DNA from: a virus
Direction: 5' to 3' (one strand)
DNA: 27,078 nucleotides
Virus record (IMG/VR): IMGVR_UViG_3300004273_000356
Location: 1 to 27,078 of that record
The position numbers and the translations under genes were made by a program. This document shows positions 8,879 through 27,078 of the stretch, in pieces; the first letter of the stretch is position 1; the number at the start of each line of letters is the position of its first letter. A model generated the notes under the pieces. That model saw only the letters and a list, made by a program, of their open reading frames with translations, was not told the origin of the DNA and searched no databases.

Positions 8879-11800
8879 ATGGCTGTAAAGGACCACGACA
8901 AGCATTATCCCGGGCTGAATGAGTCCGACGCAACGGTCCAGACACCCAACACCGTGTCCCGATACGTGCGTCCGGGCGACCGTTCCTTCGACTCCATCAT
9001 CTGGCAGTCCGGCAAGCCCGTTCTGGACTCAGAGCTTCAGCTTGGGCAGGACGCCGCTTGGTTCGAGAACTACCTCCTCCGCCGCTGGCAGGTTCCCTCC
9101 GGCTGGTTGCGGGGTCAGACCCGTTACGACTCCCTCTGTGACTACGTTCTGGAGCATGCCCCCGACGGCATTGTGGATGACTCCCCAAGCTCCGGCTCCG
9201 TGGGTGACTCCATCGGTTCCTTGGGCGGTGCCTACGGTTCCGTCGGTGAACCCACCTCAGTGGGCGGGTCCGTGGGTGAGTCTGTTGGCGGTGATTCCGT
9301 AGGATCCATCGGTGGGTCCGTAGGCGGTGGCGAGGCGGACGACGGGTCGGGCATCCTCCCGGACAGGACGCTGCTCAACGCTATCCTCCTGCCCCGGCTT
9401 GAGGCCATCGTGGCCGGGATGCCCATCGTTGTGGAGTACACGTACACCCGCACCGAGGGCTGGAACCTGATCACCCTGGAGTCGCCGACCATCTACGATG
9501 GCACCGACGGCACCGTGAAGCGGACGGACTTCCTGTTCCTGGAGGTGTTCCGGGCACTCGTGGCACCCAGCCCCAAGGCGACGGGCTACGTGGAGATCAC
9601 GGACATCAGCCTCCTGGCGGCGGGTGCTACCATTCTCATCGGCGGCCTCGTCCTGACCGCAGTAGCTGGTGCTCCTGCCATCGACGAGTTTGAGATCGAG
9701 GCCACAGCCAACCTCACGGCGATCAACATCGCCGCAGCGGTCAACCTGGCCACCAACTCTTTCGCAACCCTCGTAGCGGCACGGCCCTACTCCGACACCG
9801 TAGTCCTACAGGCCGTCGAGGCCGGTGTGGGTGGGAACACCATCTCCCTTGCGGAGACCGCCGCAGCGGGCGCTCTGGCGTTGTCTGGGCCTATCTTTAC
9901 AGGTGGGGCGGACAGGACGAACAAGCCCGCCACAGGGCAGGACAAGCTGTACCGACACGGCAACGTGCTCTCCCCTGAGCCTACGTGGCTGGACGATCAG
10001 ATGGTCGATCCGGTCGTGAACGCCGAGACAGCCCAACGGGGTCAGATCCAGTACCGCATCCGGCACACCGGAGCGACTGAGGCCATCAACTGGAAGAAGC
10101 ACCCAGACGGGTTCTCCAACAAGCTCGCCGGACCCTCTGCCGCTGTGTACGCACAGGGCACCCGGAGCGACGTGGCTTCTGCGGTCAACGTGGGCGGTGG
10201 GCGCTTCTACCCCTTCGTTCCGGCAGACAAGGCAACCGTGTGGGGCAATTCCTCCGCCGTGGAGTACGGCATCCAGGATTCGGGTCTGTGGATCGCCGGA
10301 GACGGTTCGGAGCAGGCGGCCAAGGACCTCGGGTCGGTGGACGGCTTCGTGTACGCCATCGGCATCGCCTTCCTGTTCCGTCACAATGACGCCTCGGACG
10401 CGGCGGCTGTGATCAGGGGTTTTGAGCCCGTGTCCAACGCCAACGGTGCCCCGACCTACCAGCACGGTGGGTACAACGGTGTCATCGGGCCGATCTCGGC
10501 GGGAGCGTCCGACAGGCCCGACGCTGAGTACTGTGACGTCATCACTGAGAGAAACGTCCTCGACTTGCGGCGGCACGTCATCTTCCCCGGTGTGGACCTG
10601 GCCAGCGAGGTCCAGTACCAGATGCAGTCCCTCATGGATGGGAACCTGCGGACTTGGCAGATGGACACGGCCAGCAAGCAGGACCTCGGCGGGGATTCTG
10701 GGGATGTGTCCACCCGCTACCTGATCTGCAACGAGATCGGGCGTATCGCCGACGGCAACAACAACACCTCCGGCGACACCCCTCGGGGCGTGGGTATCCG
10801 GGACTTCGATCACGTTGCCCGCCGGTTCGGGTCTCAGTCCGTTGTGGAGCGGGTCGTGTTCTCGTTCTACCCGGGCGACCGTCCGGCTGGGCCCATCGTG
10901 GCCCCTGGCACGGTGAACACCGGCAAGTACGTCACCAAGGCGGGGCCGGGGATCACATGGTACGAGGGCGACGTCCTCCACTTGGACCTCGGCAACCTGG
11001 ACGTGACGACCCTCGGCGGAGTCTTTGACGGTGGAACAGGCGGAGGCGGTTCCTTCGGGGGCGTGCCCAATTTCACCCACTTTGCTCCGCCCGGAACAGT
11101 CATCACGGACGTTCTGAGCATCTACCACGACGACGGACACCACGGGACGCCCGTAAGTACGCAGGAAGTGGAGATGGGTCTCGTGCAGGGCCTGGGCACA
11201 GGTCACCTGACAGTCAACCTCGACCAGAACGACCGAGTCGTGAACGGTGGAGACCCCGGCAACCTGAACTACCAGATGGTGGGCAGGGTAGCCGCACCCT
11301 TCAGCGGTTCGCCACGGCGGATCTTCGTCGAGGTGGAGATCACCTATCCGAACGGCGATGTGGGAGCGACAGACACCACGGACATGCATCTGGTCCCGGA
11401 CGTCGCTGTCTACGGCCACATCGAGGGTGCTGGGCCTGGCCCGCTCCTTGAGAACGACGTCACGCAGCGTCCCAACGACTTTGAGACCCTGGAAGCCCCG
11501 GCGTTCCGGTTCGGGTACAGGGAGATCCAACTGGACTACACGGCCAACAATACCTCGGGCCATGCGGTTGGGGACAGACACCCTGGTGTGCCGGTGACGG
11601 ACGAGGTGGTGAGCCGGACGACCACGGACATCTATACGCCCCGGCGTATTCGGGGCTACGCTCCTGGTACCGGACCTATCGGGGGCAACTCCGTGGCAGT
11701 AGAGGACCTAGTGGCCGGAGCCCCCGTGGCGGTGGACGAAACAGCCACCACGTTCGGGGACAGCCAGCGCAAGGTCGTGACAGCAGCCCACTTGTCCGAT

Positions 11801-12601
11801 GACCAGTGCCTCTGTGAGGTGCAGTACTTCCCGCAGGACCCGATCCCCAACTACGGTGCATCGGGCGGTGGCTACCAGGTCGCCGTGTACTTCCGCTCCA
11901 ACTCGCCGCAAACGGCGGGCGTCAAGGAGGGGGACATCGGAACGACGGGTGACGGCACGCTGCCCACCACGTTGCACGTTGAGCCGCTCTTGATGGCGGA
12001 GAATCTGTGGACGGGTCAGGTAGGCATGGGGTCCGTGGATACGGCCTTCCCCTATGTGGCCCCGCTGGACCAGATCCCGATCAATGACGGCTCCCCGCTG
12101 GACCCGGACGAGATCGCAGGGACCACGGGAGAGTGGTTCTTCTGTGCCACGGCCAGCATCACGGTGGACGACTTCAACGCTGATACGGGCCTGCTGTCCC
12201 TGCACCCCTTCGTACCGGCAGACGGTCAGGACGTGCAGGAGATCGGCGGCACGGCCAACGAGGAGAAGCCCCGCAAGGACTTCGAGTTCAGGGCCTTCTA
12301 CCCGTACATGGACGAGACGGCCTACCGCCCGACCATCCTGTCACAGCCCCTGTACGGGGCGACCCGGCACAAGGTGTTCTTCCCCTACGTGGCAAGGGCT
12401 GTGGAGGACACTCCTGGGGTAGACGGCGGCCTTCTGTTCCGCAAGGACGAGCTTCTGTTGGTCGTCCTGTCCCAGTTCGTCGAACTAGACACGGACAACA
12501 ACGTGCGATTCAACGACACCGAGAACCGTATGAGCGTGGGGGTGTACCGGACACGGAACCTCCTGCTGCTCGTTGGAGACCGGGTATGCGAGGAGGTGTA
12601 G
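8879..12601 (+). CDS. Giant tail protein, paralogue A (KPxLDSEL scaffold)
   Basis: A 1,240-residue protein with a GAGGG site just before the ATG. Residues 37-55 read F-D-S-I-I-W-Q-S-G-K-P-V-L-D-S-E-L-Q-L. The gene starting at 23601 has the same motif at residues 20-38, and further shared landmarks follow in the same order. These are T-N-K-P, then D-K-L, then G-N-V (from 347), I-Q-Y-R-I-R, L-W-I-A-G-D-G (from 470) with V-D-G-F-V-Y-A-I, and V-L-D-L-R-R (from 560). Differences include a Gly-Ser-Val-Gly linker at 105-151 and an inserted domain at 236-346. The motif with LDSEL near the N-terminus recalls phage tail proteins that begin with a 'Q.g.vlLDaDwNe' segment, but I cannot name the family with confidence. 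There is no signal peptide. It is probably a distal tail or baseplate-attached component. Confidence 0.75.
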   Translation: MAVKDHDKHYPGLNESDATVQTPNTVSRYVRPGDRSFDSIIWQSGKPVLDSELQLGQDAAWFENYLLRRWQVPSGWLRGQTRYDSLCDYVLEHAPDGIVDDSPSSGSVGDSIGSLGGAYGSVGEPTSVGGSVGESVGGDSVGSIGGSVGGGEADDGSGILPDRTLLNAILLPRLEAIVAGMPIVVEYTYTRTEGWNLITLESPTIYDGTDGTVKRTDFLFLEVFRALVAPSPKATGYVEITDISLLAAGATILIGGLVLTAVAGAPAIDEFEIEATANLTAINIAAAVNLATNSFATLVAARPYSDTVVLQAVEAGVGGNTISLAETAAAGALALSGPIFTGGADRTNKPATGQDKLYRHGNVLSPEPTWLDDQMVDPVVNAETAQRGQIQYRIRHTGATEAINWKKHPDGFSNKLAGPSAAVYAQGTRSDVASAVNVGGGRFYPFVPADKATVWGNSSAVEYGIQDSGLWIAGDGSEQAAKDLGSVDGFVYAIGIAFLFRHNDASDAAAVIRGFEPVSNANGAPTYQHGGYNGVIGPISAGASDRPDAEYCDVITERNVLDLRRHVIFPGVDLASEVQYQMQSLMDGNLRTWQMDTASKQDLGGDSGDVSTRYLICNEIGRIADGNNNTSGDTPRGVGIRDFDHVARRFGSQSVVERVVFSFYPGDRPAGPIVAPGTVNTGKYVTKAGPGITWYEGDVLHLDLGNLDVTTLGGVFDGGTGGGGSFGGVPNFTHFAPPGTVITDVLSIYHDDGHHGTPVSTQEVEMGLVQGLGTGHLTVNLDQNDRVVNGGDPGNLNYQMVGRVAAPFSGSPRRIFVEVEITYPNGDVGATDTTDMHLVPDVAVYGHIEGAGPGPLLENDVTQRPNDFETLEAPAFRFGYREIQLDYTANNTSGHAVGDRHPGVPVTDEVVSRTTTDIYTPRRIRGYAPGTGPIGGNSVAVEDLVAGAPVAVDETATTFGDSQRKVVTAAHLSDDQCLCEVQYFPQDPIPNYGASGGGYQVAVYFRSNSPQTAGVKEGDIGTTGDGTLPTTLHVEPLLMAENLWTGQVGMGSVDTAFPYVAPLDQIPINDGSPLDPDEIAGTTGEWFFCATASITVDDFNADTGLLSLHPFVPADGQDVQEIGGTANEEKPRKDFEFRAFYPYMDETAYRPTILSQPLYGATRHKVFFPYVARAVEDTPGVDGGLLFRKDELLLVVLSQFVELDTDNNVRFNDTENRMSVGVYRTRNLLLLVGDRVCEEV
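9191..9331 (+). repeat. Gly-Ser-Val-Gly repeat linker
   Basis: Residues 105-151 of the 1,240-residue protein are built from G-S-V-G, D-S-I-G, G-S-L-G, E-S-V-G and D-S-V-G units. The codons differ between units (Val GTG, GTC, GTT and GTA; Ser TCC, TCA and TCT). The repetition therefore exists mainly at the protein level and is not a fresh tandem DNA duplication. It is likely a flexible or extended spacer. The paralogue at 23601 lacks it. Confidence 0.75.
9584..9916 (+). other. Domain inserted in paralogue A
   Basis: About 111 residues (236-346) lie between the shared P-x-x-x-T and T-N-K-P landmarks, which are adjacent in the paralogue at 23601. The insert has the pattern of a small phage beta-domain: I-L-I-G-G-L-V-L-T-A, then F-E-I-E-A-T-A-N-L-T-A-I-N-I-A-A-A-V-N, then G-V-G-G-N-T-I-S-L and a final F-T-G-G-A-D. 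Reading frame and base composition are unbroken, so the fusion is fixed and not recent debris. Confidence 0.55.
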
Positions 12602-12604
12602 GTA

Positions 12605-15600
12605 ATGCCTCGTAAGGACATCGATCCCGGGACGATCACGACGGGACCTGGCAAGGCCGCTCCTGCTGAGTCCGACTTCCACCTCGGCATGGTTGCGCCC
12701 GGACAGGGCTACGTCCAAGGTGACGACAGCATCCCGGACGTGGGCGGTGGGGGTACGGCAGCCCTGAAAGCGCACATCCAGGACCCCGTGGGAGCACACC
12801 CCGCCTCGGCCATCAGCGTAGACGATGCTCCTGACCTGTTGGGGACACGGAACGTCGAGCAGAGCCTGGACGCTCTCATGGCGGGACTCAAGATCCAGCC
12901 GTATGAGATGGGTGTCCCGCCTGGTTCTTTCAGAGTGCCTTTTACGTCCAACCTACCTGGTTGGGGCATCCTTGGGTTGATCGACTCGAACCTGGTCGAA
13001 CAGGGGAGCATCACGGTTCCGATTACGGGGATCTTCAGCGGTCAGGAGGACGAGAACGAACCCGACTACATCTACCCCTACTACTTCACGCCTCCCTCCC
13101 CGGCAGTGGATTTCTACACCCGTCCTATGGGTCTGCTACCGAATTGGAACAGTGAAAACTATCAGGCAGGTGATGACCAGAGGGGTTCTGACCCCCACTT
13201 TGAGTTCCGCTTCGGGGACCTGTGGAATGTAGGCACCGTGATCGGTGGGGGTGACGGTTACGGACGAGCCGGAGCCTTCTCGGACGGTACGGACGTGGTG
13301 AGGACAGCAAGCATGTTCCCCCTCTCAATGGGGGTCATCCCTGCGTGTGTCAGCACCATGCTGTACCCGGCGGACAGGGGTGTTCTGGCCCTGATCTGGT
13401 GGCCCTATGACGGAGACGTGGCTGCCTTCCTGGCGCAGGATCTGTTGACCAGGTGTGCGGCGGCCATCCTGTTGGGGCAGGGCATCCGTGGCGGCGACTG
13501 TATCCACTGGGATGACTCTGTGGGCGCTCCCGTCATGTGTGACGGTGAGCCCGGGGGCATCTTCGAACCCGGTGTGGACGAGCAGGGATCCTACGATCCC
13601 TTCGCTTACCCTGGCAGGGCCGGTGGCCAGTACAACCTGGCCGAGATCTTCTCCGGCGTCTCGTCCATTGACGGGCAGCCCTTGCCCGACCCGTGGGATG
13701 ACTTTGACGGTGACGGTGTGCAGGGGGCTAACCGCAAGGCGGACTCGGAGATCCCGGGGCCTGGCCAGGTACGCTTGGGCACCGACCCCGCAGCAGGGGA
13801 GGGCAACATCTCTCCTTACGGCATCCCGATTCTGGGAGCGGACATCACGGCCTACGATAACCCGGCGCTGATCCCGCTCCTGTACGGATTTCTCCCGTAC
13901 TTGGGCCTGAGCTTTATCTTCGACACGAACTTCTTCTCGTACCGGCTCCCTGTGTTGGCAGGGTACGGGTCAGACATCGGACTCCAGTACACCCCTCGGG
14001 GTATCGATCCCTTGGAAACCAAGGAGACCGCACGGTACTTTGCCCTTGAGGCAGAGTTCGATGACGATGACACTTGGGTCGAGGAAGTCACTCCTGGTGT
14101 CTACAAGCTGATTTTTGCGGGAGCTTATGCGCCCCTTCTCGACGACTCAGGGGAAGGATCCTCCGATCTTCTTTCCAATCTCCTCGGACAGGACTGTTGG
14201 TACTGGCAGGTTGCCCGGTTCCGGCACTCCTTCTACGTGCCTGACTCCGATTCGGTAGGCCCCAAGGGCACCTACTGGATGATGCACTTCAAGACCGAGG
14301 GCGACTTCGAGAAGTTCGTCCGTGACGGCACCATGCCGTGGGACGTTGCGGCAGGGTACGAACTGTATGGGGCTTCTCCAGCGGCTTCTGCCATCGAAAA
14401 CTACGGCAACATCGTCAATGAGGACCCGGCCACTGAGTTGTCCCCGAGAGGTCCGGCCCCTGGTTACGGGTACGGCTCCTTCTCGTACTACAACAACAAG
14501 ACGGCCATCTTCGTGGGCGACAGGGACACTCACGACGACATCGTGGTGACGAACGACACATGGGACTACACGGTCGGGAGTATGGACGGCTTCATGGCCG
14601 TCTCCGGCGTCCAATACTTCACCCCGTTGGACCACACAGCGGGAACATCGGACTTCACGATCACCACCCTCACCGCAACGGTGCAGGGTGCAGCTAACCC
14701 CTGGCGGGACGGCTACAGGACGGACGACAACCCGTTGACGGCAGCGGCCAACCCGGCGCAACTGTCTAGTCCGTGCCCCGCTTTCCTGTCCCTGTCCCCG
14801 TTCTCCTACGACACGGACACCGGGGAGCCCGACGGCATCCCGACATTCACCGTCCCGGCCACGTTCACTGACACAAGGGGCACCAGGTGGCAGCGAGTGG
14901 AGTTCCCCTTCAACTTCCTGGGCTCGAACGGTGGCGGTGTCTTCTCGGAGACCAACGCCCCGCAGCCTGCGGACGACATGGACATCGCCCTCAGTGGGGC
15001 AGTGACTCTCATCGGGGATGAGGAGAACCCCTCCTTCTCCCAGAACGCTCGCCCGAGGTTCTTCGTGCGGCGGCCTTTGGCTCACGATGACTGGATGGAG
15101 GCGGTACAGCCCGCTTACAGCGCCCCGGATGGTTCGGGTGAGGGGCTGGAGAACAGCGACACCATCCTGTTCCATTCGACCAACTTCCACTTCGCCGGTG
15201 GTGGGGACGGGATCTACGCCAACGGAGTGCCCGCTGGGGTAGCCCCGCAGGCGTGCTACGGGTGGCTGGTCACTCCTGAGAAGGACTACGACGAGCGGTT
15301 CCTGGACGAGATCTACCGCTACGACAGTCGGTGGACAGGCATCCCGGTGTCAGAGGGTCAATACCAACTGGTCGGCCCGGGCATGCAGGGCTGGTCCGGC
15401 GGACCAATCCCTGTTCCCGTCCAGGCTGGTGCGACAATGACAGGAAGCTGGTTGGACGCCTCATGGGTCCAGAACTTCCTGCACGAGACCAGCACGGGCA
15501 ACCTGGCCACGATCCTCACCGGGGAGCTTCAGGTAGCGGGCCTCCCGGAGCGCAATCCGCCGATGAACGACTGGGTCACGGTGCCTTACCCCTCGGCGGG

Positions 15601-16309
15601 CATCTGCATGTACCCGAAGATCGACTACTTGAACGGTGGGTACGAGCCCAGCATCGGCACCTACCCGATGGTGGCGCAGCCAGACTACAGTGCCTGCACG
15701 GGCGACCGGGTCTACGTGCGTGCCTTTGACGTGGCTCGCACCCGGTCGACGGGCGAAAACGTAGTGGGTGACAACATCCTCTACCTGAAGCTCTCCGGCG
15801 TTGAACTGGACGACTTGCGGTTCAGCCCTCCCGGACCTGGGGGTTCGAACGGCGTAGCTGTCATGGTCAAGGTGCCTGGACAGACGACATGGATGGACGT
15901 AGGCCGCAGGAACGGTGAAGGCCCCAACAAGCAGGACCCGATTCTGGACGGAGCCGGGTGTCAGGTGGTTGGTCCCTACACGTTCTGGTGGCACGACACC
16001 TTGGAAGGTACAGCGACGTGCCAGATCAAGGTCGACATCGGGCCGCTGGCTACGCTTGCCAAGGGGCAGGGGGATGAGGTTCCGGTGCTGGTCAAGGTGC
16101 TGATGAAGGACCCGTCAAGCGTGCCCGCACCAGGCACCCCCTACAACTACGACTTCGACCACGAGGCGGATGAGAGTGGGAGTGCTACTTTCAACGGGTC
16201 CACGGGGCCCTCGACCAGCAGCCGACTGGTCCGAGGCATCTGTGGGATCAAGGTCTTGGCCCCCTCTGAGGTGACGGACTCTTACGGGAACCCGCTGATC
16301 CCCTCGTAA
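12605..16309 (+). CDS. Giant phage tail protein with AHPASAIS motif
   Basis: A 1,234-residue protein. Its ribosome-binding site AGGAGGT (12591-12597) lies inside the last codons of the preceding gene and the ATG follows that stop by three bases, so the two are translationally close. Residues 50-90 contain the phage motif A-L-K-A-H-I-Q-D-P-V-G-A-H-P-A-S-A-I-S, then N-V-E-Q-S-L-D-A-L, which is common near the start of fibre proteins. The rest is aromatic-, Gly- and Asp-rich with no membrane segment. A D-F-D-G-D-G run at 366-371 could bind calcium but lacks the usual Glu at loop position 12. Near the C-terminus are Y-L-K-L-S-G-V-E-L and then G-G-S-N-G-V-A-V-M-V-K-V-P-G. No enzyme motif was recognised. 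It is probably a fibre or baseplate-associated virion protein. Confidence 0.72.
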   Translation: MPRKDIDPGTITTGPGKAAPAESDFHLGMVAPGQGYVQGDDSIPDVGGGGTAALKAHIQDPVGAHPASAISVDDAPDLLGTRNVEQSLDALMAGLKIQPYEMGVPPGSFRVPFTSNLPGWGILGLIDSNLVEQGSITVPITGIFSGQEDENEPDYIYPYYFTPPSPAVDFYTRPMGLLPNWNSENYQAGDDQRGSDPHFEFRFGDLWNVGTVIGGGDGYGRAGAFSDGTDVVRTASMFPLSMGVIPACVSTMLYPADRGVLALIWWPYDGDVAAFLAQDLLTRCAAAILLGQGIRGGDCIHWDDSVGAPVMCDGEPGGIFEPGVDEQGSYDPFAYPGRAGGQYNLAEIFSGVSSIDGQPLPDPWDDFDGDGVQGANRKADSEIPGPGQVRLGTDPAAGEGNISPYGIPILGADITAYDNPALIPLLYGFLPYLGLSFIFDTNFFSYRLPVLAGYGSDIGLQYTPRGIDPLETKETARYFALEAEFDDDDTWVEEVTPGVYKLIFAGAYAPLLDDSGEGSSDLLSNLLGQDCWYWQVARFRHSFYVPDSDSVGPKGTYWMMHFKTEGDFEKFVRDGTMPWDVAAGYELYGASPAASAIENYGNIVNEDPATELSPRGPAPGYGYGSFSYYNNKTAIFVGDRDTHDDIVVTNDTWDYTVGSMDGFMAVSGVQYFTPLDHTAGTSDFTITTLTATVQGAANPWRDGYRTDDNPLTAAANPAQLSSPCPAFLSLSPFSYDTDTGEPDGIPTFTVPATFTDTRGTRWQRVEFPFNFLGSNGGGVFSETNAPQPADDMDIALSGAVTLIGDEENPSFSQNARPRFFVRRPLAHDDWMEAVQPAYSAPDGSGEGLENSDTILFHSTNFHFAGGGDGIYANGVPAGVAPQACYGWLVTPEKDYDERFLDEIYRYDSRWTGIPVSEGQYQLVGPGMQGWSGGPIPVPVQAGATMTGSWLDASWVQNFLHETSTGNLATILTGELQVAGLPERNPPMNDWVTVPYPSAGICMYPKIDYLNGGYEPSIGTYPMVAQPDYSACTGDRVYVRAFDVARTRSTGENVVGDNILYLKLSGVELDDLRFSPPGPGGSNGVAVMVKVPGQTTWMDVGRRNGEGPNKQDPILDGAGCQVVGPYTFWWHDTLEGTATCQIKVDIGPLATLAKGQGDEVPVLVKVLMKDPSSVPAPGTPYNYDFDHEADESGSATFNGSTGPSTSSRLVRGICGIKVLAPSEVTDSYGNPLIPS

Positions 16310-16313
16310 TGGG

Positions 16314-16322
16314 CCTATAACC
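16314..16322 (+). promoter_or_regulatory. Putative phage promoter box (CCTATAACC)
   Basis: This sits in the 39-base gap between 16309 and 16349, with TATA at 16316-16319, 33 bases before the ATG. It matches the box at 755. No -35-like hexamer is visible at the expected spacing. Immediately downstream, CCTGC (16321-16325) can pair with GCAGG (16335-16339). The second arm overlaps the start of the AGGAGG ribosome-binding site (16337-16342), which could moderate translation. Confidence 0.42.
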
Positions 16323-16348
16323 TGCCAATGTAGAGCAGGAGGAACGAC

Positions 16349-19300
16349 ATGGGCGACCCGAACACACGGCTGGGAGCCGACCGCATCACTTCCCACACTC
16401 AGTCCGGCAGGGCTCCGTGGGAAGAGATGCTGGGCAAGTACCCGGCTACCCCGGCTGCTCGATCCATCCAGGCCGCCAGTGCGGTACAGGGCATGGCCGG
16501 ATCGTGGGCAGGGTCTTGGACCCTTCAGCCCACGGGGATCATGAACGACACCATGGCGGAGGCTCCGGCCCCGCTTCAGGTGATTCCGAACCAGCTTGGG
16601 CGTATGGGCCTGCCCGAGATCAACTTCGTGCCCTACTCGGCGAACACGAACCGGATCGGCAACAAGGGAGCCTCCCTGGTTGGGTGCCCCATCTCCTACA
16701 GTGTGATCGGACCCACCATCAAGAACCGCCGGACGATCTGGCAGTGGCTGGTGGAGAACAACAAGGCGGTCACCGACCCGGACGTTCTGACCCTCGATAC
16801 CGTGGCCGCCATCGACGTGAGTGGCGTAGGCACCCCAGGCTTGGCCTCCTTCGATCCTCTCACGAGGGGCATCCAGGAACTGTACGGTATCGATCCCGCT
16901 ACGTGGGAGGACGACTACCCTGGCGGCCTCTACGTGATCGTGTCTATGACAGGCACGGAGGGGGCCCTTGGCGGCACCTTTGCGGCTGCGGGCGGCGTCG
17001 GTGACGGGTTCATCAACACGGTAGGCGGTGGCGAAGCCTGTGCGCCCCTGGAAGTGCTTTCCCCCTACGAGATCTTCAGGATCGCCGCGTTCGACGATGC
17101 CTCCATCATATTGGATCAGGGCAAGCAACTGTCCGACTACTTCAGCATCCCTGTCCTGCCGGACCTGGCCGTCATCAGGTCCATCACCATCGTGACCCCG
17201 GCGGCCTCCCGTTGCGTGGTCCTGCCGGGGTCCGAGGATAAGACCTTCGCTATCCTGCCGCCCGCACGGGCGCTGGGGTCCGATCAGCAGTACCCGAGGG
17301 ACGACTTCACGGGCGGCACCTGGGTTGAGGAGTTGACCAGTTGGTCGAATGCGATGGGGCCGAACGTCTATGACGAGGGCCCCTTGCTTCCTGTCCCCAA
17401 GCCCATCACCTTCATGAACGGCAAGTTGGATGGTGGTGGTGGTGTAGGTCCCTCCCTCACGGTCTTCATCGCCGGGACCATGAACATCTACATTGAGGAC
17501 ACTGACCACACGGATTACACAGGGAAGATCTTCTGTATCCGAGGGGCCACTGTCAAAGGCAACGCTGAACTCGTCCACGACCCCGTCACAGGATTCCAGG
17601 CGGGGTTGGGGTCGCTGCTGGGCTACTACGAGGTGCTTTTCCAGCCTGGAGCCAGCGGAGACTGGAGGGGTTGGGCGCTCCGCAGGATCGATGAGGCTGA
17701 CCCCGTAACCGGGCGTTCCCTCTTCGGGTGCGACCGAATGTTCGAACTTCAGACACCCACGGTTGCCGGGGATGAGATCTTCCTGGATGTGAGCATCCAC
17801 GAGCCTGTTTCGTCTATCTGGATGAGCGCAGCCTTCGATTATGACGCCGTGGATTCGGCCCGAATCAAGAACCTGCTCGACCCTCGGTGGATTGAGCGGA
17901 GCACCAAGACGATTGACGGGTGGCCCGGTACGTTCCCGAACAAGGCCGAGAAGGCTGTGTTCGATACGGCTACCAACGGCCCCCACAACAGCGTCAATCC
18001 GGGCAACCTCTATGACATGGGCTTCAAGGTCGTGCTCTACGCGGCGGAGATCGACGGTAACGGCAACATCGCCCCGAAGTGGTCCCACCCTGTAGCAGCC
18101 AACGACATGGTCCTGGGTGATGGCACCGACGGTGAGTCCTTCGTTGAGGTGGACTACGCTAACGGCCTGATCAGGCTGTCTGAGAGCCCCGAAAATTCAG
18201 ATTCGCCCTTGCAGATGGGCACTGGCGTAGACGTTCACGCTGACAACCCCCGAGGGGAGTTCATCATCTTCGCCTGCTGCGTGCCCTACACGCTTGAGGC
18301 GGGCCAGACGGGCACAGGGAGCAGGGTTACAGGTTCCTACAGTTCCTCGGTGTCTGGGGCGTGTGCAAGTGGCAGTGGCGTTGCGGGGTCACCGGACTTC
18401 GCTGACGTGTATGGTGGCCGGACGATGATCCCCTTGGAGGACGGCCCCAACATCCAGTCGTGGTACGACGGGGGTACGGCCAGCGCCATCACCCTGGAGG
18501 GCTACCATGCGGCGGACATCCCGCAGGCCGGGTTCGTTGAGATCCTTCAGGGGGAAACACCCTTCGGAACTCCGAACTTCGCCGACGAGGATGTGCGTGC
18601 GGCGACCTGGGGCTACTTCGGGACAAGGGAGCGTCTTTCGGGCGGTACGGACCCGGTAACGGACCTCCTCAACCCCTTCGGTGGCGGTGTCTACGGGGTG
18701 AGCAGCTTCCTGGCGTCGGGCCACAAGGCCATCCTGCGTCGTCACACAAGCCCTGCTTGGGGTGCGACGGGCACGATGCTCACGGACTACCAGTACGACA
18801 CCACCTACGGGCAGGCCGCCCGTGGGAGTACCCTTCGTTTTGACGGTGCCGAGGTTGTCCACAACCTCGACGGTTCCGTCACGGTGCGGATGCGGGATAC
18901 GGGGGTGCAGGACAACGTCGACAACTTCGGGGACCTCTTCTCCTCGTGGATTCTGGAAGGTGGAGTCCCGACGTTCACGGTTGCTGGGCTGAATGTGCGG
19001 GCAACCTACACAGAGATGACTGTTCTGGTTCGGGGTCAGCGTTTCACGATCCCGCCCGGGTACGTCCAGTTCGCTCCTCCGGCAGCGCCCTACGCCAAGT
19101 ACCTGTACGTCGATACGTCCGCCGCCTGCCCCACGATGGCGATGTCGGACACGCTCCCGCTGACCACGGGTGACTACAGCAAGGATCACATCCTCATCTC
19201 CAAGTGCTACGACTTGGGGGCAGGGCCGTTGGTCCATGATCTCCGGTATCCGCTGGTGGACGTGGATCAGCGGGTCGACATCTACGTCGGGCAGACGGAG

Positions 19301-21883
19301 AACATGGAGGCGGACACCCCGCACTTCACCTCCCTCGCCGACGCTGTGGCCTATGCCAGTGAGATCCAGAACCCGGACGCAGGGAACCCAGGCCGTCGGG
19401 TTCACATCAAGGTCGTAGGGTACACGGACGAGGCGGACGCCAACCTGCCGATCCAGATCAAGAGTGACGGGATCATCATCACGGGCAGCCCGCAGTTGAT
19501 GCAGTCTACTGAGAAGATGGAAGTCCGGTGGGACTCGGTCGACAAGGCGCTCATCGACTTCAACGGCCACCACGACACCCTCATCCAGAATGTCCCCTTC
19601 CGCAGCACATTGGACGAAGTGACCTATCCTCCAGGTAGCCCTGGACGTGACAGAGCTACCGCTGACCGTGTGCTCTTCATCAACACGGGTGCCACCTGTG
19701 AACGGGTGCATGTAAAGAACTGCCGCCTGAGAGGGCCCTCACAGGGCTTCTTGGCGGTCGTATCGGCCACTCACGGGGACGGCAGCTTCGAGGAGAGTCG
19801 GTTCGAGGACAACAACGCCATCGGGGTTCTCGACTTCGGGTTCTACGTGACGGTGGGCAGTGTCGCCATTGGCGGCAATAACGTGTTTGCCCACAACTAC
19901 ATCGAACAAGATGGGGCGAACCCGGGGGCCATGCAGGCTCTGAGTGAGGGTGGGGGTATCTGGTTTACCCGTGCAGGAATCGGGGCCAGTGCGTTCAACC
20001 ACATCACACACAACTACATGGTCGGTTTCTACCAGGGCATCTGTCTGGACTCCATCTACGGTCTGGTGGATTTCAATATCGTGGGGTCCACCCAAGGGCG
20101 GGGCTACCTCATCGACGGTTCCGCCACGGTCAGCAACAATGCGGGCATCAACGTCCACATCGCTGTGGGGGCACCCCGTAAAGAAGCGATGTCCTGCACG
20201 AACTTTACGGGGACCGTTCAGAACAATGATCTCGCACTAGCTTCGGCGGTTGCCGGGGACTTGGAGTTGTACGTTCAGAGCACCTACACCAAGGTGGCTG
20301 TCCGGGATAACTACGCTCTCCGCACAGAAGTTGATGGCCCAAGCATGCTCGTGGAAGGGCACTATGCTGAAGACCTGAGCGTGTTGGGATCCCGCACCCG
20401 TGTCGTGAACAGCACCATCGAAGAGATCGTCGTAGGGGCGGGAGTTTCCTACTGTTACATTGGAGGCTGCCACTGGACAGGCACGCCGCCCGCCATGACG
20501 ATCCAGCTTTCCGCTTCCTCCAACCACTGTGTGGTTGAGGGGTGCCACGGACTCCTACTGGCCGCCAACGGGACGGACGTTGCGGTCAACGACAGCACGT
20601 TCACCACGGGCCAACTGTTCGGGATCGACGCCCGTGTGTCCAACTCCTACTTCACGACAGCGCAACTCTTTGCGAACAACGCCCGGATGTCCAACTGTGC
20701 CGTCGGGACGTTGGAGGCGGGCTACAGGGTCTCTGACAACACCTTCATCGCCACAGGACACCAGATCTCGAACACAGAGGTGTCGGGCACGGCGTACTTG
20801 GGCGAGGAGTGCAGGGCCGAGAACAGCCGCTTCGAGTCCCTCACGTACCTCGCCACGGGATGCTCGGTACAGGGCAGTCACATCGCCGACCTTCGGGACT
20901 ATAACCTGATCTTCAGCGGGACATGGCACCCGGCTGTGGGTGTGGTGCTGGAAGGGAACACGGTCGCCGAGGTTGAGGGCGGCACCTTCGTGTTCCGGTG
21001 TTCTCGTTCGACCTTCATGGGCAACCAGTTCCTCACGTCCCTGAAGATTGAAAGTCAGGCCACTCCGTACCTCGGATTCAGGCACATCGTCCAAGGGAAC
21101 CAGTTCACGACGGGTTCCCTTGCGGTAGGTTCAGGGCCGCAGCCCGCCATCGAGTCCGTGGTGTCCGAGAACACCCTTCAGGTCGACCTGAAGACCTACG
21201 GGGACGATTCTCGGGTCTTCGGCAACCACATCTCGGGCAACATGGCGGTGTACGGGGATGGGCTGCACGTAAGCGGGAACAAGGCGCAGAATGCCGCCGT
21301 GCGGCACGATGTCGTGGGCGTGTCCTGTGTGGTTCGTGGGAATGACATCACGGGCGCTCTGCGGGTTGGCCCTGCGGGTAAGACAACCGGTCCCAACCTT
21401 GTGGCGGACAATCAGGTGTCCCTGAATCTGGAATGCTCTGACCCGAACGGAACGGTGACGGGGAATCGTTGTGGAAGCCTCACCGTGGACTCCACCAGCG
21501 AGGTCACGGGGAACTCATCCAATGGGCAGATCAACGTGAACACTGGCAGCATCGTGACAGGTAACTCCGCTGCCGGTGATATCACTGTGGCAGCGGACAG
21601 CATCCTCACGGGAAACAACACCGCCACGGACTTGGTGGTTGGCATTGATTCCACGGTACAAGGCAACATCGTCGGGGACGACATGCTGTTCTCCGTGAAC
21701 GCTGCCGGTTGCGTGATTATGGGCAACAAGGTGGTGGGCAACATCGGCGCAGCGGGCTTGATCAGTACCGCTATCGTGATGGGGAACAGGGCGGCTGCGG
21801 TCTTTGGGGTTGCAGGGCTTGTGGTGGGGCCGAAGGATCAGGAAGCCGCTGTGGCAGGGACTCCCTTCAACATCGTCAATTAG
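16349..21883 (+). CDS. Giant tail fibre/spike with long C-terminal parallel beta-helix
   Basis: An 1,844-residue protein with AGGAGG at 16337-16342 and a 6-base spacer. Residues 1-880 are unassigned beta-rich sequence. Residues about 890-970 look like the linker domain often found before phage fibre tips (V-L-V-R-G-Q-R-F-T-I-P, then Y-L-Y-V-D-T-S, then D-H-I-L-I-S, then D-L-R-Y-P-L). From about 978 the pectin-lyase-like start appears (Y-V-G-Q-T, then H-F-T-S-L-A-D-A-V-A-Y-A), followed by N-rich beta-helix rungs to the C-terminus. Rungs near 1410-1530 repeat V-S-N-S-x-F and those from about 1530 repeat V-x-G-N. The last 140 residues form a near-regular ladder. There is no C-terminal domain of the VKD.GN type seen in the gene at 800. 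It is probably a large receptor-binding or surface-degrading spike; enzyme activity cannot be assigned. Confidence 0.8.
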   Translation: MGDPNTRLGADRITSHTQSGRAPWEEMLGKYPATPAARSIQAASAVQGMAGSWAGSWTLQPTGIMNDTMAEAPAPLQVIPNQLGRMGLPEINFVPYSANTNRIGNKGASLVGCPISYSVIGPTIKNRRTIWQWLVENNKAVTDPDVLTLDTVAAIDVSGVGTPGLASFDPLTRGIQELYGIDPATWEDDYPGGLYVIVSMTGTEGALGGTFAAAGGVGDGFINTVGGGEACAPLEVLSPYEIFRIAAFDDASIILDQGKQLSDYFSIPVLPDLAVIRSITIVTPAASRCVVLPGSEDKTFAILPPARALGSDQQYPRDDFTGGTWVEELTSWSNAMGPNVYDEGPLLPVPKPITFMNGKLDGGGGVGPSLTVFIAGTMNIYIEDTDHTDYTGKIFCIRGATVKGNAELVHDPVTGFQAGLGSLLGYYEVLFQPGASGDWRGWALRRIDEADPVTGRSLFGCDRMFELQTPTVAGDEIFLDVSIHEPVSSIWMSAAFDYDAVDSARIKNLLDPRWIERSTKTIDGWPGTFPNKAEKAVFDTATNGPHNSVNPGNLYDMGFKVVLYAAEIDGNGNIAPKWSHPVAANDMVLGDGTDGESFVEVDYANGLIRLSESPENSDSPLQMGTGVDVHADNPRGEFIIFACCVPYTLEAGQTGTGSRVTGSYSSSVSGACASGSGVAGSPDFADVYGGRTMIPLEDGPNIQSWYDGGTASAITLEGYHAADIPQAGFVEILQGETPFGTPNFADEDVRAATWGYFGTRERLSGGTDPVTDLLNPFGGGVYGVSSFLASGHKAILRRHTSPAWGATGTMLTDYQYDTTYGQAARGSTLRFDGAEVVHNLDGSVTVRMRDTGVQDNVDNFGDLFSSWILEGGVPTFTVAGLNVRATYTEMTVLVRGQRFTIPPGYVQFAPPAAPYAKYLYVDTSAACPTMAMSDTLPLTTGDYSKDHILISKCYDLGAGPLVHDLRYPLVDVDQRVDIYVGQTENMEADTPHFTSLADAVAYASEIQNPDAGNPGRRVHIKVVGYTDEADANLPIQIKSDGIIITGSPQLMQSTEKMEVRWDSVDKALIDFNGHHDTLIQNVPFRSTLDEVTYPPGSPGRDRATADRVLFINTGATCERVHVKNCRLRGPSQGFLAVVSATHGDGSFEESRFEDNNAIGVLDFGFYVTVGSVAIGGNNVFAHNYIEQDGANPGAMQALSEGGGIWFTRAGIGASAFNHITHNYMVGFYQGICLDSIYGLVDFNIVGSTQGRGYLIDGSATVSNNAGINVHIAVGAPRKEAMSCTNFTGTVQNNDLALASAVAGDLELYVQSTYTKVAVRDNYALRTEVDGPSMLVEGHYAEDLSVLGSRTRVVNSTIEEIVVGAGVSYCYIGGCHWTGTPPAMTIQLSASSNHCVVEGCHGLLLAANGTDVAVNDSTFTTGQLFGIDARVSNSYFTTAQLFANNARMSNCAVGTLEAGYRVSDNTFIATGHQISNTEVSGTAYLGEECRAENSRFESLTYLATGCSVQGSHIADLRDYNLIFSGTWHPAVGVVLEGNTVAEVEGGTFVFRCSRSTFMGNQFLTSLKIESQATPYLGFRHIVQGNQFTTGSLAVGSGPQPAIESVVSENTLQVDLKTYGDDSRVFGNHISGNMAVYGDGLHVSGNKAQNAAVRHDVVGVSCVVRGNDITGALRVGPAGKTTGPNLVADNQVSLNLECSDPNGTVTGNRCGSLTVDSTSEVTGNSSNGQINVNTGSIVTGNSAAGDITVAADSILTGNNTATDLVVGIDSTVQGNIVGDDMLFSVNAAGCVIMGNKVVGNIGAAGLISTAIVMGNRAAAVFGVAGLVVGPKDQEAAVAGTPFNIVN
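21452..21800 (+). repeat. V-T-G-N beta-helix ladder
   Basis: From residue about 1702 the protein repeats (V/I/L)-(T/Q/M)-G-N every 16-20 residues: VTGNRC, VTGNSS, VTGNSA, LTGNNT, VQGNIV, IMGNKV, VMGNRA. Each unit fits one coil of a parallel beta-helix with a stacked Asn turn. The DNA copies are diverged, so this is structural periodicity and not a recent tandem repeat. Confidence 0.75.
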
Positions 21884-22653: not shown

Positions 22654-22786
22654 CGTGTCCTCCACACGTTAGCTCTCCCACTTCTTCAACACAGGTGTGA
22701 ACGGGGCTAAGCCTCCGATCCACTAGGCCGCCTATACAGACCCTTTAGCGGGTATAGTGGCATGGGTTTGACAAGAGAGGACCGCC
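22654..22786. promoter_or_regulatory. Divergent intergenic control region with inverted CTATAC boxes
   Basis: This is the largest non-coding gap (133 bases) and separates the lipoprotein gene from the + gene at 22787. It holds CTATAC at 22732-22737 and its exact reverse complement GTATAG at 22752-22757, separated by 14 bases with CCC and GGG inside. Read on the + strand the first copy is CCTATACAG. Read on the - strand the second is ACTATACCC. Each matches the box upstream of the genes at 800 and 16349. The pair could be two face-to-face promoters, an operator, or a hairpin. The gap also contains TTGACA at 22768-22773, which is too close to the start at 22787 to be its -35. Confidence 0.4.
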
Positions 22787-23581
22787 GTGAGGATTCTTGC
22801 TGATCTAGGTACACATGTAGCGGGCGACCCGGCGATCACGCAGGTTGATCACGCTCCCCTGCTGGATGAGACCTTCCGCACAGCCATCAACGGGAAGTTC
22901 GCCATCCCCGTCCCTTCGGGCGCAGAGTTCGACGTGGACCACGAGAGCTACATCTTGAACGGTGGCGTCGTGGACGGTGACTCGGTGGTGGCCATTTCGA
23001 TGTCGCACCTCCTGGCCGCCTACCCGATGTACGAGTTCATCTACTTCAACCCGCTCCTGACTGCCGCCAACATCGACGAACTGGACCTGAGCGCCACGTT
23101 CATTCCTCCGGGTTCCTCCGTGGGGTCCGATGAGTTCCCGACCCGTGTTCAGACAGGGCGGGGGGTTGGGGTAGACTCGGGGCAGATGCCCACACACACG
23201 GCGCTTTTGGCGGTCAATGAGGGGGCTTCCCCGTCCCGTCCCGGCCTCCTCATCACAGAGGAGATCGACATCTCCGTGGCGACGGGCGGAGCGGGTGCCG
23301 ATGAGTTCATGCCCTGGTGGAAGGTCTACTACTTTGATATCACTGAGGACTCGAACGGGTACGACAGCACCAACAGCCCCGCCATCCGGTACTTGAAGGA
23401 GGGCGACCAGGAACCATCCGGGTTGTCTGTCTATATCTCTGTGGATGATGGAGCCACCTGGTGCGAGGTAGGGCTACTGGAGACGGTGGCCTTTGCGGCA
23501 CCCTCGACGGGATTCAGGTTGGCGTTTGTGAACAGCGGCGACAGCAAGCTCTTCCTCGCCTGCTTCGCGGTAATGTTCTAA
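22787..23581 (+). CDS. Phage structural protein, unknown role
   Basis: A 264-residue protein with a GTG start; AGAGG at 22776-22780 with a 6-base spacer supports it. The first half contains P-V-P-S-G-A-E-F-D-V and F-P-T-R-V-Q-T-G-R-G-V-G-V. The second half reads W-W-K-V-Y-Y-F-D-I-T-E-D, then L-S-V-Y-I-S-V-D-D-G-A-T-W-C-E-V and ends R-L-A-F-V-N-S-G-D-S-K-L-F-L-A, a beta-sandwich-like pattern. There is no signal peptide or membrane segment. It lies 19 bases upstream of the large paralogue B gene and probably shares its transcript, much as the 217-residue protein precedes paralogue A. The two small partners show no obvious similarity to each other. A tail or baseplate accessory role is inferred from position. 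Confidence 0.65.
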   Translation: MRILADLGTHVAGDPAITQVDHAPLLDETFRTAINGKFAIPVPSGAEFDVDHESYILNGGVVDGDSVVAISMSHLLAAYPMYEFIYFNPLLTAANIDELDLSATFIPPGSSVGSDEFPTRVQTGRGVGVDSGQMPTHTALLAVNEGASPSRPGLLITEEIDISVATGGAGADEFMPWWKVYYFDITEDSNGYDSTNSPAIRYLKEGDQEPSGLSVYISVDDGATWCEVGLLETVAFAAPSTGFRLAFVNSGDSKLFLACFAVMF

Positions 23582-23600
23582 CGAGGAAGAGGGGCTTCAC

Positions 23601-26600
23601 ATGGCGAATGACTTTGGCAGTGGCGTATCCCGCACACTCGATGCTGTCTCAAGGCAGTTTTCGACGGTGGTGTGGCAGAAGAACAAGCCCCCGCTGGACT
23701 CCGAACTGAACTTGATGTCCCAGGTCGACTGGGCCAACCTTCAGCAGATGGTTCAGTCGATGATGCCCTCGGGGTTCATTCTGGACCCGACCAGGCCGAC
23801 ACAGGACTTCGAGACCGACCAGCAGTGGGCCAACCTGTTCAAGTTCGGGACGCCACCTGTCCCTCGTGGATCCCACGAGCAGTACCGGCAGACGCCGGTC
23901 GTGTGGGCCAACGTCAACGGGTGGATCATCCCCGTGGCAGGGACGGACTCTGACGGGACAAGCGCAGGGGACTGGGACGACCTGGCGAACCTGATCAAGC
24001 TGTACCCGCCGCCCGAGTCTGACAGCCGCATCGATCTCGTGTTCCTGGAGGCGTGGCAGACCGTCGTACACGGCAACCCCTCGACTACCAACAAGCCCGC
24101 CGCCGACAAGCTGTGGAAGTACGGCAACGTCCAGTACGGCGGGACGAACCTGGACGATGACCTGGAAGACCCCGAGATCCGCTTTGAGACCACGGCCCGT
24201 GTGCAGGTCCAGTACCGCCTCCGTGTCCACGGCTCCGGTGTGGGCCTGGGTGGCAGCGTAGCCCTCGACGTTCACCCGGACGGCCTGGGAGACCCCAACG
24301 TGTTCGGACAGGGGACAGCAACGACTCCCCAGTCCGGCTCACGCTTCACGAACATGGGCCGGGAACTGGGTGACCCCTCGCTGTGGCGGGCGGGTGACGG
24401 CGACCCGAACAACGCCTTCGGGACCATCGACGGCTACGTCTACGCCATCCCCGTGTGTGCGGTGTTCCGCCGCAACAGCAACGTCTACGTGGCGGTCAAC
24501 CAGAGCGGTAACCCGAACCAGAACGGTGCCTTCGAGCGCACCCCGAACAGCAAGCTCCTCCCGGACCCCTTGGCCGGGGCGACCGAGTTGACCCAGCCGA
24601 TCCTGGGCGAGTTCCTGTCCCCGACGGCAGCTACCACGGGCACGGACGCCGTTGTCCAGGTGAGCAACCTCAACGGTTCCGGGCTCGATGACCCGTCCCT
24701 CACCTTGACCAGCACCTTCATCGTCATCGACGACGAGATCCTCTCCATCAGCGCCGTCGACATCGTCAACGGCACGATCACCATCCCGCTGGTGGCTGAC
24801 GCTACCACGGGACGGAACGGACGAGGACGGAACGGCACGGCGGCCACGGGTCACCAGGCCGGTGCCTCGGTCAGCTTCTTCAACACCCGCCCGGACAGCC
24901 TGTTCAGCGATGAAGTGGCAGAGGCCGACATTCTGGACCTGCGGAGGGCCGTGAACGCTCAGGAGTGGGACTACATCCGGCTCCTGGAGCACAACCTCGG
25001 CGCTCTGACACGGGGCAAGCTCCGGTCGACGTGGAAGAAGTCCGGTGAGGGTGACTCACAGGGCCCCGTTGTGCAGGAGGTCGACTACCTGTACGCCGAC
25101 GGTGCGACCGCCGTCCCGAACCATACAGAGGCCATGGACGGCCCGGACGGCATCCGAACGATCTTCTCGGACGCCGCCACGATCCAGCCTGACGTGACCC
25201 TCCTGTTGGACAACGACGCCACACAGGATGCGAACCACTACGTCGGCTTCACGAATGACCCGCTGGACGACACGGTCGAGTGGGACGTAGGGCCGGACTT
25301 CAAGCCCTCCGCCTTCATGAACGTGGGCCCCGGCGACCTGGTGGCCGACAATGTCTGGACCAACGGCTCCTTGATCTTCCTGTACACAGGTGGGTCCGAC
25401 GGCACACAGGGTGCCCGCAGCACCTTCCGGGACGGCAGCACCAGGGCGGTTCGCCCGTTGATGCCCAAGGAGTACTGGAAGGACAACGAAAGGCTCCCCG
25501 CTACGGGCCGCCAGACGCCCGTCACGGCCCGCTTCGTGGGGGAGAGGGCCTTTGACCCCTACCCGCCCACCACGCCCGTCACGCCGACGGACCTGCGCCT
25601 GTGTCACCCCGGCCCGATGTACCCGTGGTACCAGTTGTTCTTCGACTGGCCCATCGTTGTACTCGGTGCCCCGCTACGGGACAGTCTGATCATCCAGAAC
25701 GTCCCGGTCTCGGACTACGGCGGCGGTGGGGGCACCCTAGAAATCGACCTCGGGGTGGACTTCGACACGGATGGCGTGTTTTTCCACAAGGAGAACGGGC
25801 GTTTCGCCAACGACCCCACGCAGATCTCGGCACCCCTTCTCCGGGGTAGTCGGACGCTGTGGGGGATGATTACGGACAATGGCAACGACATCACCGGGTT
25901 CTCCTCGGAGGTGTACCTCGTAGCTCACGGCGACCCGGATAACCGCACCAACAACGGTGTGTTCAAGGTCATCGGGGCCGGGACGGCGGGCTACACCGTC
26001 AACAACGCAGCAAACAGCACCAGTGTGCTGCTGTTTGCCTTGAATGCCGACATCAACGGGGCCGATTGGGGCACCGGCACCAACTCGGTCACCCTCGAGT
26101 TCCGGTCCCCGTACAGCAACTCCGATGACGCCTCTGACTACGCTGCCAAGGCCGCGGACATTGTGATCGGGCTGACGGACATCGGTGGGACGATTCTGGG
26201 TAGCTTCAGTTTAGGGACGGCTCTGTACCCGTGGGCGGCTGTAACACTGGATCAGTCAGTAGCGGCCAACTATGACACCTCGATGCCGAGGGACAGTCTC
26301 GAGGACATCGCTGCTGTCCCGTCCAAGTTGCTCCTTAACATGAGCCTCCTGTACCACCCGGGTCGAGGGGCGATGGCAAGGGTGCCGGACGACATCAACC
26401 GCTTCGCCATGAAGTTTGGCACCACGGAGACGCTGGGGGCCTACCTGCGGCAGAGCGGGACGGCCATTGACAACGTGTTCTCTGCCCCGTCCGGCGTGCC
26501 CTCCGACGAGACCTACTTCGACGTCATCCACGTCCAGACGTGGAACCGCCTCCCGTCCCTCGGGCTCACCGCTCCGGTCGCCCCCGATTACGGCGGCGCT

Positions 26601-27078
26601 GTGGTTGGGTTCACTGAGCAGGACAGGGAGCACGAGGCGTTCATCGACCGTGGCAGCAAGACCCTGCTGTTCCGTCCGTTCCGTGACAGGGAGATGACCC
26701 TCCAGGCTCAGTCCTTCACGGATCTGCTGACTACGGACTGCCTGCTTGGCACCTACGGCTACACCGCCGTTGCGGGTGTCCCACCCAAGGACGCCTTGCA
26801 GATCTGGACGGGCACCGCACCGAACATCGCCACTACGGGCAAGCAGATGGGCTTCGCCCTCCCGCCGGAGTTCATGCCCCGGTTCGGACGGCAGGACATC
26901 CCTGCGTGGCTGCGGATCAGCGACAACGACCCCTTCCTGCCGGGTATCAACCACCTCTTCGTGGATTCGGCGGACTGGAACCGCACGGTGTTCAACATCA
27001 TCGGCGGGGAGACCAACCACGGGGTGGGTTTGGAGGTCAACGGCTTCTACCTGTCCACCCTGGACCCGGCCAAGTACG
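23601..27078 (+). CDS. Giant tail protein, paralogue B (open at the right edge)
   Basis: The ATG at 23601 follows AGAGGGG (23588-23594). The frame has no stop for the remaining 1,159 complete codons, so the 3' end lies outside the window. Residues 20-38 read F-S-T-V-V-W-Q-K-N-K-P-P-L-D-S-E-L-N-L, matching residues 37-55 of the 1,240-residue protein. The shared landmarks continue in the same order: T-N-K-P (163), G-N-V, V-Q-Y-R-L-R, L-W-R-A-G-D-G (261), I-D-G-Y-V-Y-A-I and I-L-D-L-R-R (444). It lacks the Ser-Val-Gly linker and the domain at 236-346 of paralogue A, but has its own insert at about 334-429. Residues 720-731 form a canonical EF-hand-type loop, D-F-D-T-D-G-V-F-F-H-K-E. Later parts include W-T-N-G-S-L-I-F-L-Y and Y-H-P-G-R-G-A-M-A-R-V-P. 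It is likely a distal tail or baseplate component. Confidence 0.77.
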   Translation, partial: MANDFGSGVSRTLDAVSRQFSTVVWQKNKPPLDSELNLMSQVDWANLQQMVQSMMPSGFILDPTRPTQDFETDQQWANLFKFGTPPVPRGSHEQYRQTPVVWANVNGWIIPVAGTDSDGTSAGDWDDLANLIKLYPPPESDSRIDLVFLEAWQTVVHGNPSTTNKPAADKLWKYGNVQYGGTNLDDDLEDPEIRFETTARVQVQYRLRVHGSGVGLGGSVALDVHPDGLGDPNVFGQGTATTPQSGSRFTNMGRELGDPSLWRAGDGDPNNAFGTIDGYVYAIPVCAVFRRNSNVYVAVNQSGNPNQNGAFERTPNSKLLPDPLAGATELTQPILGEFLSPTAATTGTDAVVQVSNLNGSGLDDPSLTLTSTFIVIDDEILSISAVDIVNGTITIPLVADATTGRNGRGRNGTAATGHQAGASVSFFNTRPDSLFSDEVAEADILDLRRAVNAQEWDYIRLLEHNLGALTRGKLRSTWKKSGEGDSQGPVVQEVDYLYADGATAVPNHTEAMDGPDGIRTIFSDAATIQPDVTLLLDNDATQDANHYVGFTNDPLDDTVEWDVGPDFKPSAFMNVGPGDLVADNVWTNGSLIFLYTGGSDGTQGARSTFRDGSTRAVRPLMPKEYWKDNERLPATGRQTPVTARFVGERAFDPYPPTTPVTPTDLRLCHPGPMYPWYQLFFDWPIVVLGAPLRDSLIIQNVPVSDYGGGGGTLEIDLGVDFDTDGVFFHKENGRFANDPTQISAPLLRGSRTLWGMITDNGNDITGFSSEVYLVAHGDPDNRTNNGVFKVIGAGTAGYTVNNAANSTSVLLFALNADINGADWGTGTNSVTLEFRSPYSNSDDASDYAAKAADIVIGLTDIGGTILGSFSLGTALYPWAAVTLDQSVAANYDTSMPRDSLEDIAAVPSKLLLNMSLLYHPGRGAMARVPDDINRFAMKFGTTETLGAYLRQSGTAIDNVFSAPSGVPSDETYFDVIHVQTWNRLPSLGLTAPVAPDYGGAVVGFTEQDREHEAFIDRGSKTLLFRPFRDREMTLQAQSFTDLLTTDCLLGTYGYTAVAGVPPKDALQIWTGTAPNIATTGKQMGFALPPEFMPRFGRQDIPAWLRISDNDPFLPGINHLFVDSADWNRTVFNIIGGETNHGVGLEVNGFYLSTLDPAKY
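24600..24887 (+). other. Domain inserted in paralogue B
   Basis: About 96 residues (334-429) stand between landmarks that are close together in paralogue A (just before R-P-D and the L-D-L-R-R helix). The insert has F-I-V-I-D-D-E-I-L-S-I-S-A-V, then T-T-G-R-N-G-R-G-R-N-G-T-A-A-T-G-H-Q-A-G-A-S-V. This is the 'IDdEi, then RG..GT.A..H.aGa.V' pattern of a small module common in phage tail proteins. Boundaries are approximate. Confidence 0.5.
25758..25793 (+). other. EF-hand-like calcium loop in paralogue B
   Basis: These codons give D-F-D-T-D-G-V-F-F-H-K-E, with Asp at loop positions 1, 3 and 5, Gly at 6, a hydrophobic residue at 8 and Glu at 12. That is the full consensus for a calcium-binding loop. 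Flanking helices are not obvious, so it may be an isolated loop within a beta structure. Confidence 0.5.

Follow-up and report, generated by a model that had tools for sequence, protein, structure and literature searches.

A paralogous pair of large proteins encoded in the baseplate gene cluster of giant phages, probably derived from one ancient duplication

Two large proteins, A and B, encoded on a 27,078-base IMG/VR virus record (the window, i.e., the whole stretch of DNA analysed) share an N-terminal module, with no detectable likeness between their C-terminal parts. They are probably the products of one ancient duplication within the baseplate gene cluster of giant contractile-tailed phages, and would form two parts of the baseplate periphery with a common N-terminal docking module and different C-terminal parts. 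The module would dock each protein at the periphery, and the unrelated C-terminal parts would each build a different fixed element of the structure (arms, brackets or fibre sockets) that holds its own neighbours. A literature search found no paper describing the pair.

Gene content of the window

The window carries a train of genes on the + strand, listed here with the segments of A and B discussed below.

1-750, + strand: P8, a baseplate-region gene between Baseplate_J and P7
800-2716, + strand: P6, a baseplate-region gene between Baseplate_J and P7
2726-8158, + strand: P4, a baseplate-region gene between Baseplate_J and P7
8203..8856, + strand: P7, 217 aa, conserved neighbour upstream of A, with homologues in phage G (gp190) and Tunturi_5 ('virion structural protein')
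8879..12601, + strand: protein A (P0001), an ORF of 1240 aa with giant-phage orthologues (clade support 100/99)
8999..10888, + strand: A residues 41-670, the N-terminal module common to both proteins, with linker and insert (hhalign; secondary-structure agreement)
9179..9373, + strand: A residues 101-165, Gly/Ser-rich low-complexity linker (orthologue lengths; low pLDDT there)
9569..9910, + strand: A residues 231-344, inserted tail-sheath/flagellin/FliD-type domain (VIA fold match and sequence match)
11009..12598, + strand: A residues 711-1240, A-specific C-terminal part, conserved in A orthologues, with no match to the B C-terminal part and no variable tip
12605..16309, + strand: P3, 1234 aa, conserved neighbour downstream of A (gene-order comparison)
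16349..21883, + strand: P5, 1844 aa, parallel beta-helix-like (fold judged from sequence), with a C-terminus hypervariable among close relatives
22787..23581, + strand: 264-aa protein, conserved, immediately upstream of B (gene-order comparison)
23601..27078, + strand: protein B (P0002), at least 1159 aa with no stop before the contig end; orthologues known
23670..25220, + strand: B residues 24-540, the N-terminal module common to both proteins, with insert (hhalign; secondary-structure agreement)
24555..24881, + strand: B residues 319-427, inserted small tail domain (PHROG, VIA fold and sequence matches)
25407..27078, + strand: B from residue 603, start only of the B-specific C-terminal part, with no match to the A C-terminal part

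B orthologues are 1.5-2.1 thousand residues long, and an exact-match scan for the missing 3' end of B found nothing. Between the P5 and 264-aa genes, one ORF runs opposite to the train (21880-22665, - strand); it is lipoprotein-like, with a signal and a lipobox. A 32% identical homologue lies right after P5 in a related record (L047), and the Tunturi_5 tail cluster likewise contains a 'lipoprotein precursor'. A putative superinfection-exclusion role is possible.

Homology of A and B

The original prediction, made from the sequence, described A and B as diverged paralogues with the same scaffold order, on the strength of eight short landmarks. All eight are present and in the same order in both proteins, at A/B residues 42/25, 347/163, 355/169, 360/174, 391/204, 470/261, 487/276, and 560/444. 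The offsets of 17, 184, 209, and 116 given at the time were reproduced exactly, the full series being 17, 184, 186, 186, 187, 209, 211, and 116. Similarity by chance is excluded by the BLASTP score (E 5e-15), by Smith-Waterman alignment (z = 20.6 with 200 shuffles, as against z <=2.5 for A or B with large tail proteins encoded elsewhere in the window) and by hhalign of the orthologue families (29 A-type versus 26 B-type proteins; E 4e-75 / 6.5e-68, probability 100). With residues as columns, the hhalign match spans A 41-710 and B 24-602. AlphaFold models of A and B were made from separate alignments (mean pLDDT 74.5 for A 41-1240 and 68.6 for B), and the secondary structure predicted along the alignment agrees at 66% of the helix or strand positions of A, compared to a mean of 20% and a maximum of 28% in shifted controls. 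The profile alignment and structure prediction proposed as a check thus returned collinear module matches, with secondary structure matching outside the inserts. By contrast, no likeness is detectable between the two C-terminal parts (hhalign probability 9.9; Smith-Waterman z 0.2). The description of diverged paralogues with a common scaffold hence holds for the N-terminal half, i.e., the well-aligned core of about A 41-670 and B 24-540, and not for the C-terminal parts, which are unlike.

By these comparisons of sequence and predicted structure, A and B are confirmed as a paralogous pair that stems from a gene duplication in the phage lineage. When 11 protein families of the cluster were compared (nine neighbours together with A and B), the only significant pair besides A-B was P8-P4; P8 and P4 are separate in the window and fused in some relatives, e.g., LR745208. 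A segmental duplication of a neighbour together with its gene, from P7-A to 264-aa-B, was considered and rejected, as P7 and the 264-aa protein are unrelated.

Inserted domains and the shared module

The steps in the offset series had been ascribed to a linker and a domain gained in A, followed by a domain gained in B, and this account is supported. The Gly/Ser linker of A comprises 65 residues here and 0-13 in most orthologues. The A insert has the fold of the tail-sheath/flagellin domain: VIA gives a Z of up to 11.3 against the cyanophage A-1(L) sheath (2.6 A over 95 residues), the fold is also found in the PhiTE, Milano and Mu tail sheaths, flagellin and FliD, and the insert matches the Milano and 7-7-1 sheath proteins in sequence (E about 0.01). 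A similarity to T4 gp11 (Z 5.2) concerns the insert only and not the module. Since the insert is present in 27/27 core A proteins and missing from both early-branching A-type proteins, it was probably gained once, within the A line. Many B proteins have a related domain in their C-terminal part; among relatives (L041, L044, L072, L073, L093), it also occurs in P4, P3, and the B C-terminal part. The sheath/flagellin-type domain is thus a mobile tail domain, found in B C-terminal parts and in neighbouring tail proteins as well.

The B insert, present in 26/26 B-type proteins examined, resembles a JBD30 baseplate chain (VIA Z 8.7, 34% identity) and matches the same protein by sequence (E 0.0094); 9/26 B proteins have a PHROG tail-protein match in this region. 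After the duplication, a tail-sheath-type domain would have entered one loop of A, and a small tail domain another loop of B.

The shared module itself has no Pfam or PHROG family at a usable E-value, no match in the PDB by sequence, and no confident match to a solved structure. DUF4815 (PF16075) was hit by 1/20 module sequences, at E 0.14, and there are weak fold matches to DUF4815 proteins. The B model aligns with TssK at Z 5.2 (168 residues at 4.9 A), a score that unrelated folds also reach, and neither TssK nor the shoulder domain of siphophage receptor-binding proteins matches the module in sequence. The phi812 TmpF protein (1019-aa ORF63/TmpF) was also considered for the module fold and is not claimed, as its Z of 5.5-6.0, with partial coverage, falls in the same unrelated-fold range.

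Gene neighbourhood

That A and B are tail components, as first proposed, is supported by their gene neighbourhood. In an overlapping record from the same phage (G001; A 100% identical), a sheath-initiator-like gene and a Baseplate_J gene lie just upstream; Baseplate_J scores well above its Pfam cut-off, and the sheath initiator, below its Pfam cut-off, is supported by PHROG. Across the group, the genes follow the order gp25-like, Baseplate_J, P8, P6, P4, P7, A, P3, P5, 264-aa, B, with individual members having gained or lost genes. Nine of nine records tested contain Baseplate_J, at about 5-17 kb from A or the A homologue. A and B are thus encoded in a cluster with the sheath initiator (gp25) and Baseplate_J (gp6/gpJ), as are contractile-tail baseplate proteins, and both would be present in the virion.

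Distribution and age of the duplication

In scans of viral contigs, A-type relatives turned up at 47 loci and B-type relatives at 15. A search with module profiles covered 33 records, mostly giant-phage contigs or fragments; 24 of these have precisely one copy of each type, A and B, including records of 402, 436, 485, and 619 kb. A single copy was found in three fragments, two divergent records and Tunturi_5; another two divergent records each have a pair of copies not assignable to type, and phage G has several. One contig with the same A/B pair, IMGVR_UViG_3300022719_000283 (L051; 618,736 bp), is among the largest phage contigs in this set. A orthologues also occur on contigs binned to Spirochaetes, Terriglobia, and Verrucomicrobiota MAGs (L116, L117, and L118), which may be mis-binned phage contigs or hints at hosts.

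In the module tree, the A clade is supported at 100/99 and the B group at 85/95 for its core, or 84/76 when two early branches are included. The two clades show a mirrored branching order, and their module distances are correlated (r = 0.90, 20 phages). A single duplication before the radiation of the group, followed by joint inheritance, would explain these trees, since the A and B clades branch alike and the copies are paired in most records. The two copies are adjacent in one divergent record (G022), and a single gene separates the A-type from the B-type copy in another record (G024), as would be expected of an original tandem duplication. The duplication is thus older and more general than is visible from the window alone.

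The strict co-retention of one copy of each protein per genome, the correlated divergence and the side-by-side copies of G022 could also mean that A and B occupy pseudo-equivalent sites in the same ring, i.e., that a homomeric baseplate ring turned into a hetero-oligomer in which both are needed. We regard this as unlikely: Tunturi_5 manages with one copy, phage G has several, and correlated divergence is equally expected from shared vertical descent. It is likewise doubtful that the edge of the baseplate carries a mixed ring or bracket of A and B, a hetero-oligomer derived by duplication from a formerly homomeric part, that became obligatory as the virion grew, with single-copy relatives such as Tunturi_5 keeping the ancestral homomeric form.

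Conservation and the question of receptor binding

The original prediction also had A and B diverging to different partners or receptors, and the receptor half of this proposal found no support: few genes of the cluster are better conserved than A and B, and neither has a variable tip like that of P5. Between a 402-kb phage (G002) and its relative G008, the close pair with the best sampling, identity is highest for P7 (79%), followed by B (75%) and A (74%), and reaches 65% for P4, 62% for P3, 52% for P5, and 51% for P6. Moreover, the last hundreds of residues of A and B are 83-89% identical between these two phages, in contrast to the C-terminal third of P5, which falls to 0-36% per 100 residues while its N-terminal part is better conserved. 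The one dip in B (46% near residues 1600-1800) is internal, at a place where the mobile domain sits in other members. In most of eight close-pair comparisons, A and/or B come at or near the top in identity. A and B also show roughly the conservation of the wedge gene J. If the two had diverged to different receptors, their distal parts should vary fastest, and they do not; among close relatives, neither protein has a distal part that varies far more than its proximal part, and the close-pair comparisons revealed a hypervariable distal tip in P5 and none in A or B. From its sequence features, with repeats that point to a beta-helix, P5 is likely the receptor-binding fibre or spike, the best candidate in the window and a likelier receptor binder than A or B. 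Divergence of A and B to different partners, on the other hand, is plausible from their sequences, given that each has a conserved C-terminal part unrelated to that of the other.

It is accordingly improbable, in our judgement, that A and B are two receptor-binding fibres diverged to different receptors, even if a shared N-terminus combined with different C-termini, in large tail proteins encoded close to baseplate genes, is a common tail-fibre layout. Such a role would also agree with the 'tail fiber' annotation of the Tunturi_5 homologue and with a weak concanavalin-like match (Laminin_G_3) at 482-594 of phage G gp211. The lack of a hypervariable distal part, the wedge-like conservation and a Pfam search of A that showed no lectin, enzyme or depolymerase domain all speak against it. 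A fibre that binds an invariant receptor would be conserved as well, and the Tunturi_5 annotation is compatible with a fibre role. For the preferred reading, of two baseplate-periphery parts with a common docking module, the pair separates a conserved scaffold (A and B) from the likely host-recognition protein P5. As giant-phage tail tips are largely unannotated, it also offers a near-universal and easily recognised marker of one giant-phage group, and the ancient duplication provides a handle on how a large baseplate grew more complex.

Comparison with known systems

In T4, the baseplate-periphery and short-fibre proteins gp10, gp11, and gp12 are held to share an ancestor; they differ from A and B in size and sequence. 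The uncultured huge phage LR745208 (485 kb) is an unannotated record with clear A and B orthologues of about 43% identity over nearly their full length; its A and B genes lie 56 kb apart and its A lacks the linker. In Tunturiibacter phage Tunturi_5, gp247 ('tail fiber protein') carries the same N-terminal module and is encoded in a tail/baseplate gene cluster. It is the single copy in a 309-kb genome, its motif spacing is too short for the inserts, and the tree places it, with weak support, among the B-side sequences.

Bacillus phage G gp211 and gp420 have the N-terminal module of A and B, by sequence and by predicted fold, with genes that, unlike those of A and B, lie 170 kb apart. The inserts of A and B were not detected in either protein. 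For gp420, the spacing would suit an insert like that of B, but the sequence gave no match; such an insert, if present, would date the duplication before phage G. In addition, gp420 apparently has a second, partial copy of the module at its N-terminus, and further partial copies occur in gp423, which repeats the gp420 N-terminus at 54% identity, and in a 1027-aa protein. The phage G module loci are L016:18636-24668 (gp420), L016:26354-27736 (gp423), L113:1211-4276, and L114:829-3927. The P7 homologue gp190 lies near the gp6/J-like gene gp188 (PMC8570332). No literature on gp211 or gp420 was found, and the phage G tail paper mentions neither. Together with single-copy Tunturi_5, phage G makes the ideas on A and B testable.

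These repeated copies in phage G, and the spread of other domains in phage 0305phi8-36 (PMC2147016), would agree with a mobile virion-anchor cassette spread by domain shuffling, A and B being two of its many unrelated users, yet this is very unlikely given that the main group has exactly two copies, always N-terminal, in a fixed gene order and in two mirrored clades. A duplicated pair of periphery proteins thus remains the preferred reading. A precedent is the Bacillus thuringiensis phage 0305phi8-36, a large myophage whose paralogue families a-c have repeated domains in virion proteins, for which a shared virion anchor was proposed (PMC2147016). Those families consist of domains different from the A/B module and are spread over several genes, and a search of a phage collection with A and B gave no match to this phage. 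The docking role suggested here for the module draws on this anchor precedent (PMC2147016) as well as on the position and conservation of the module at the N-terminus. Paralogous virion proteins with a common anchor are already known, and A and B are a new, well-supported case that is unusually wide in giant phages.
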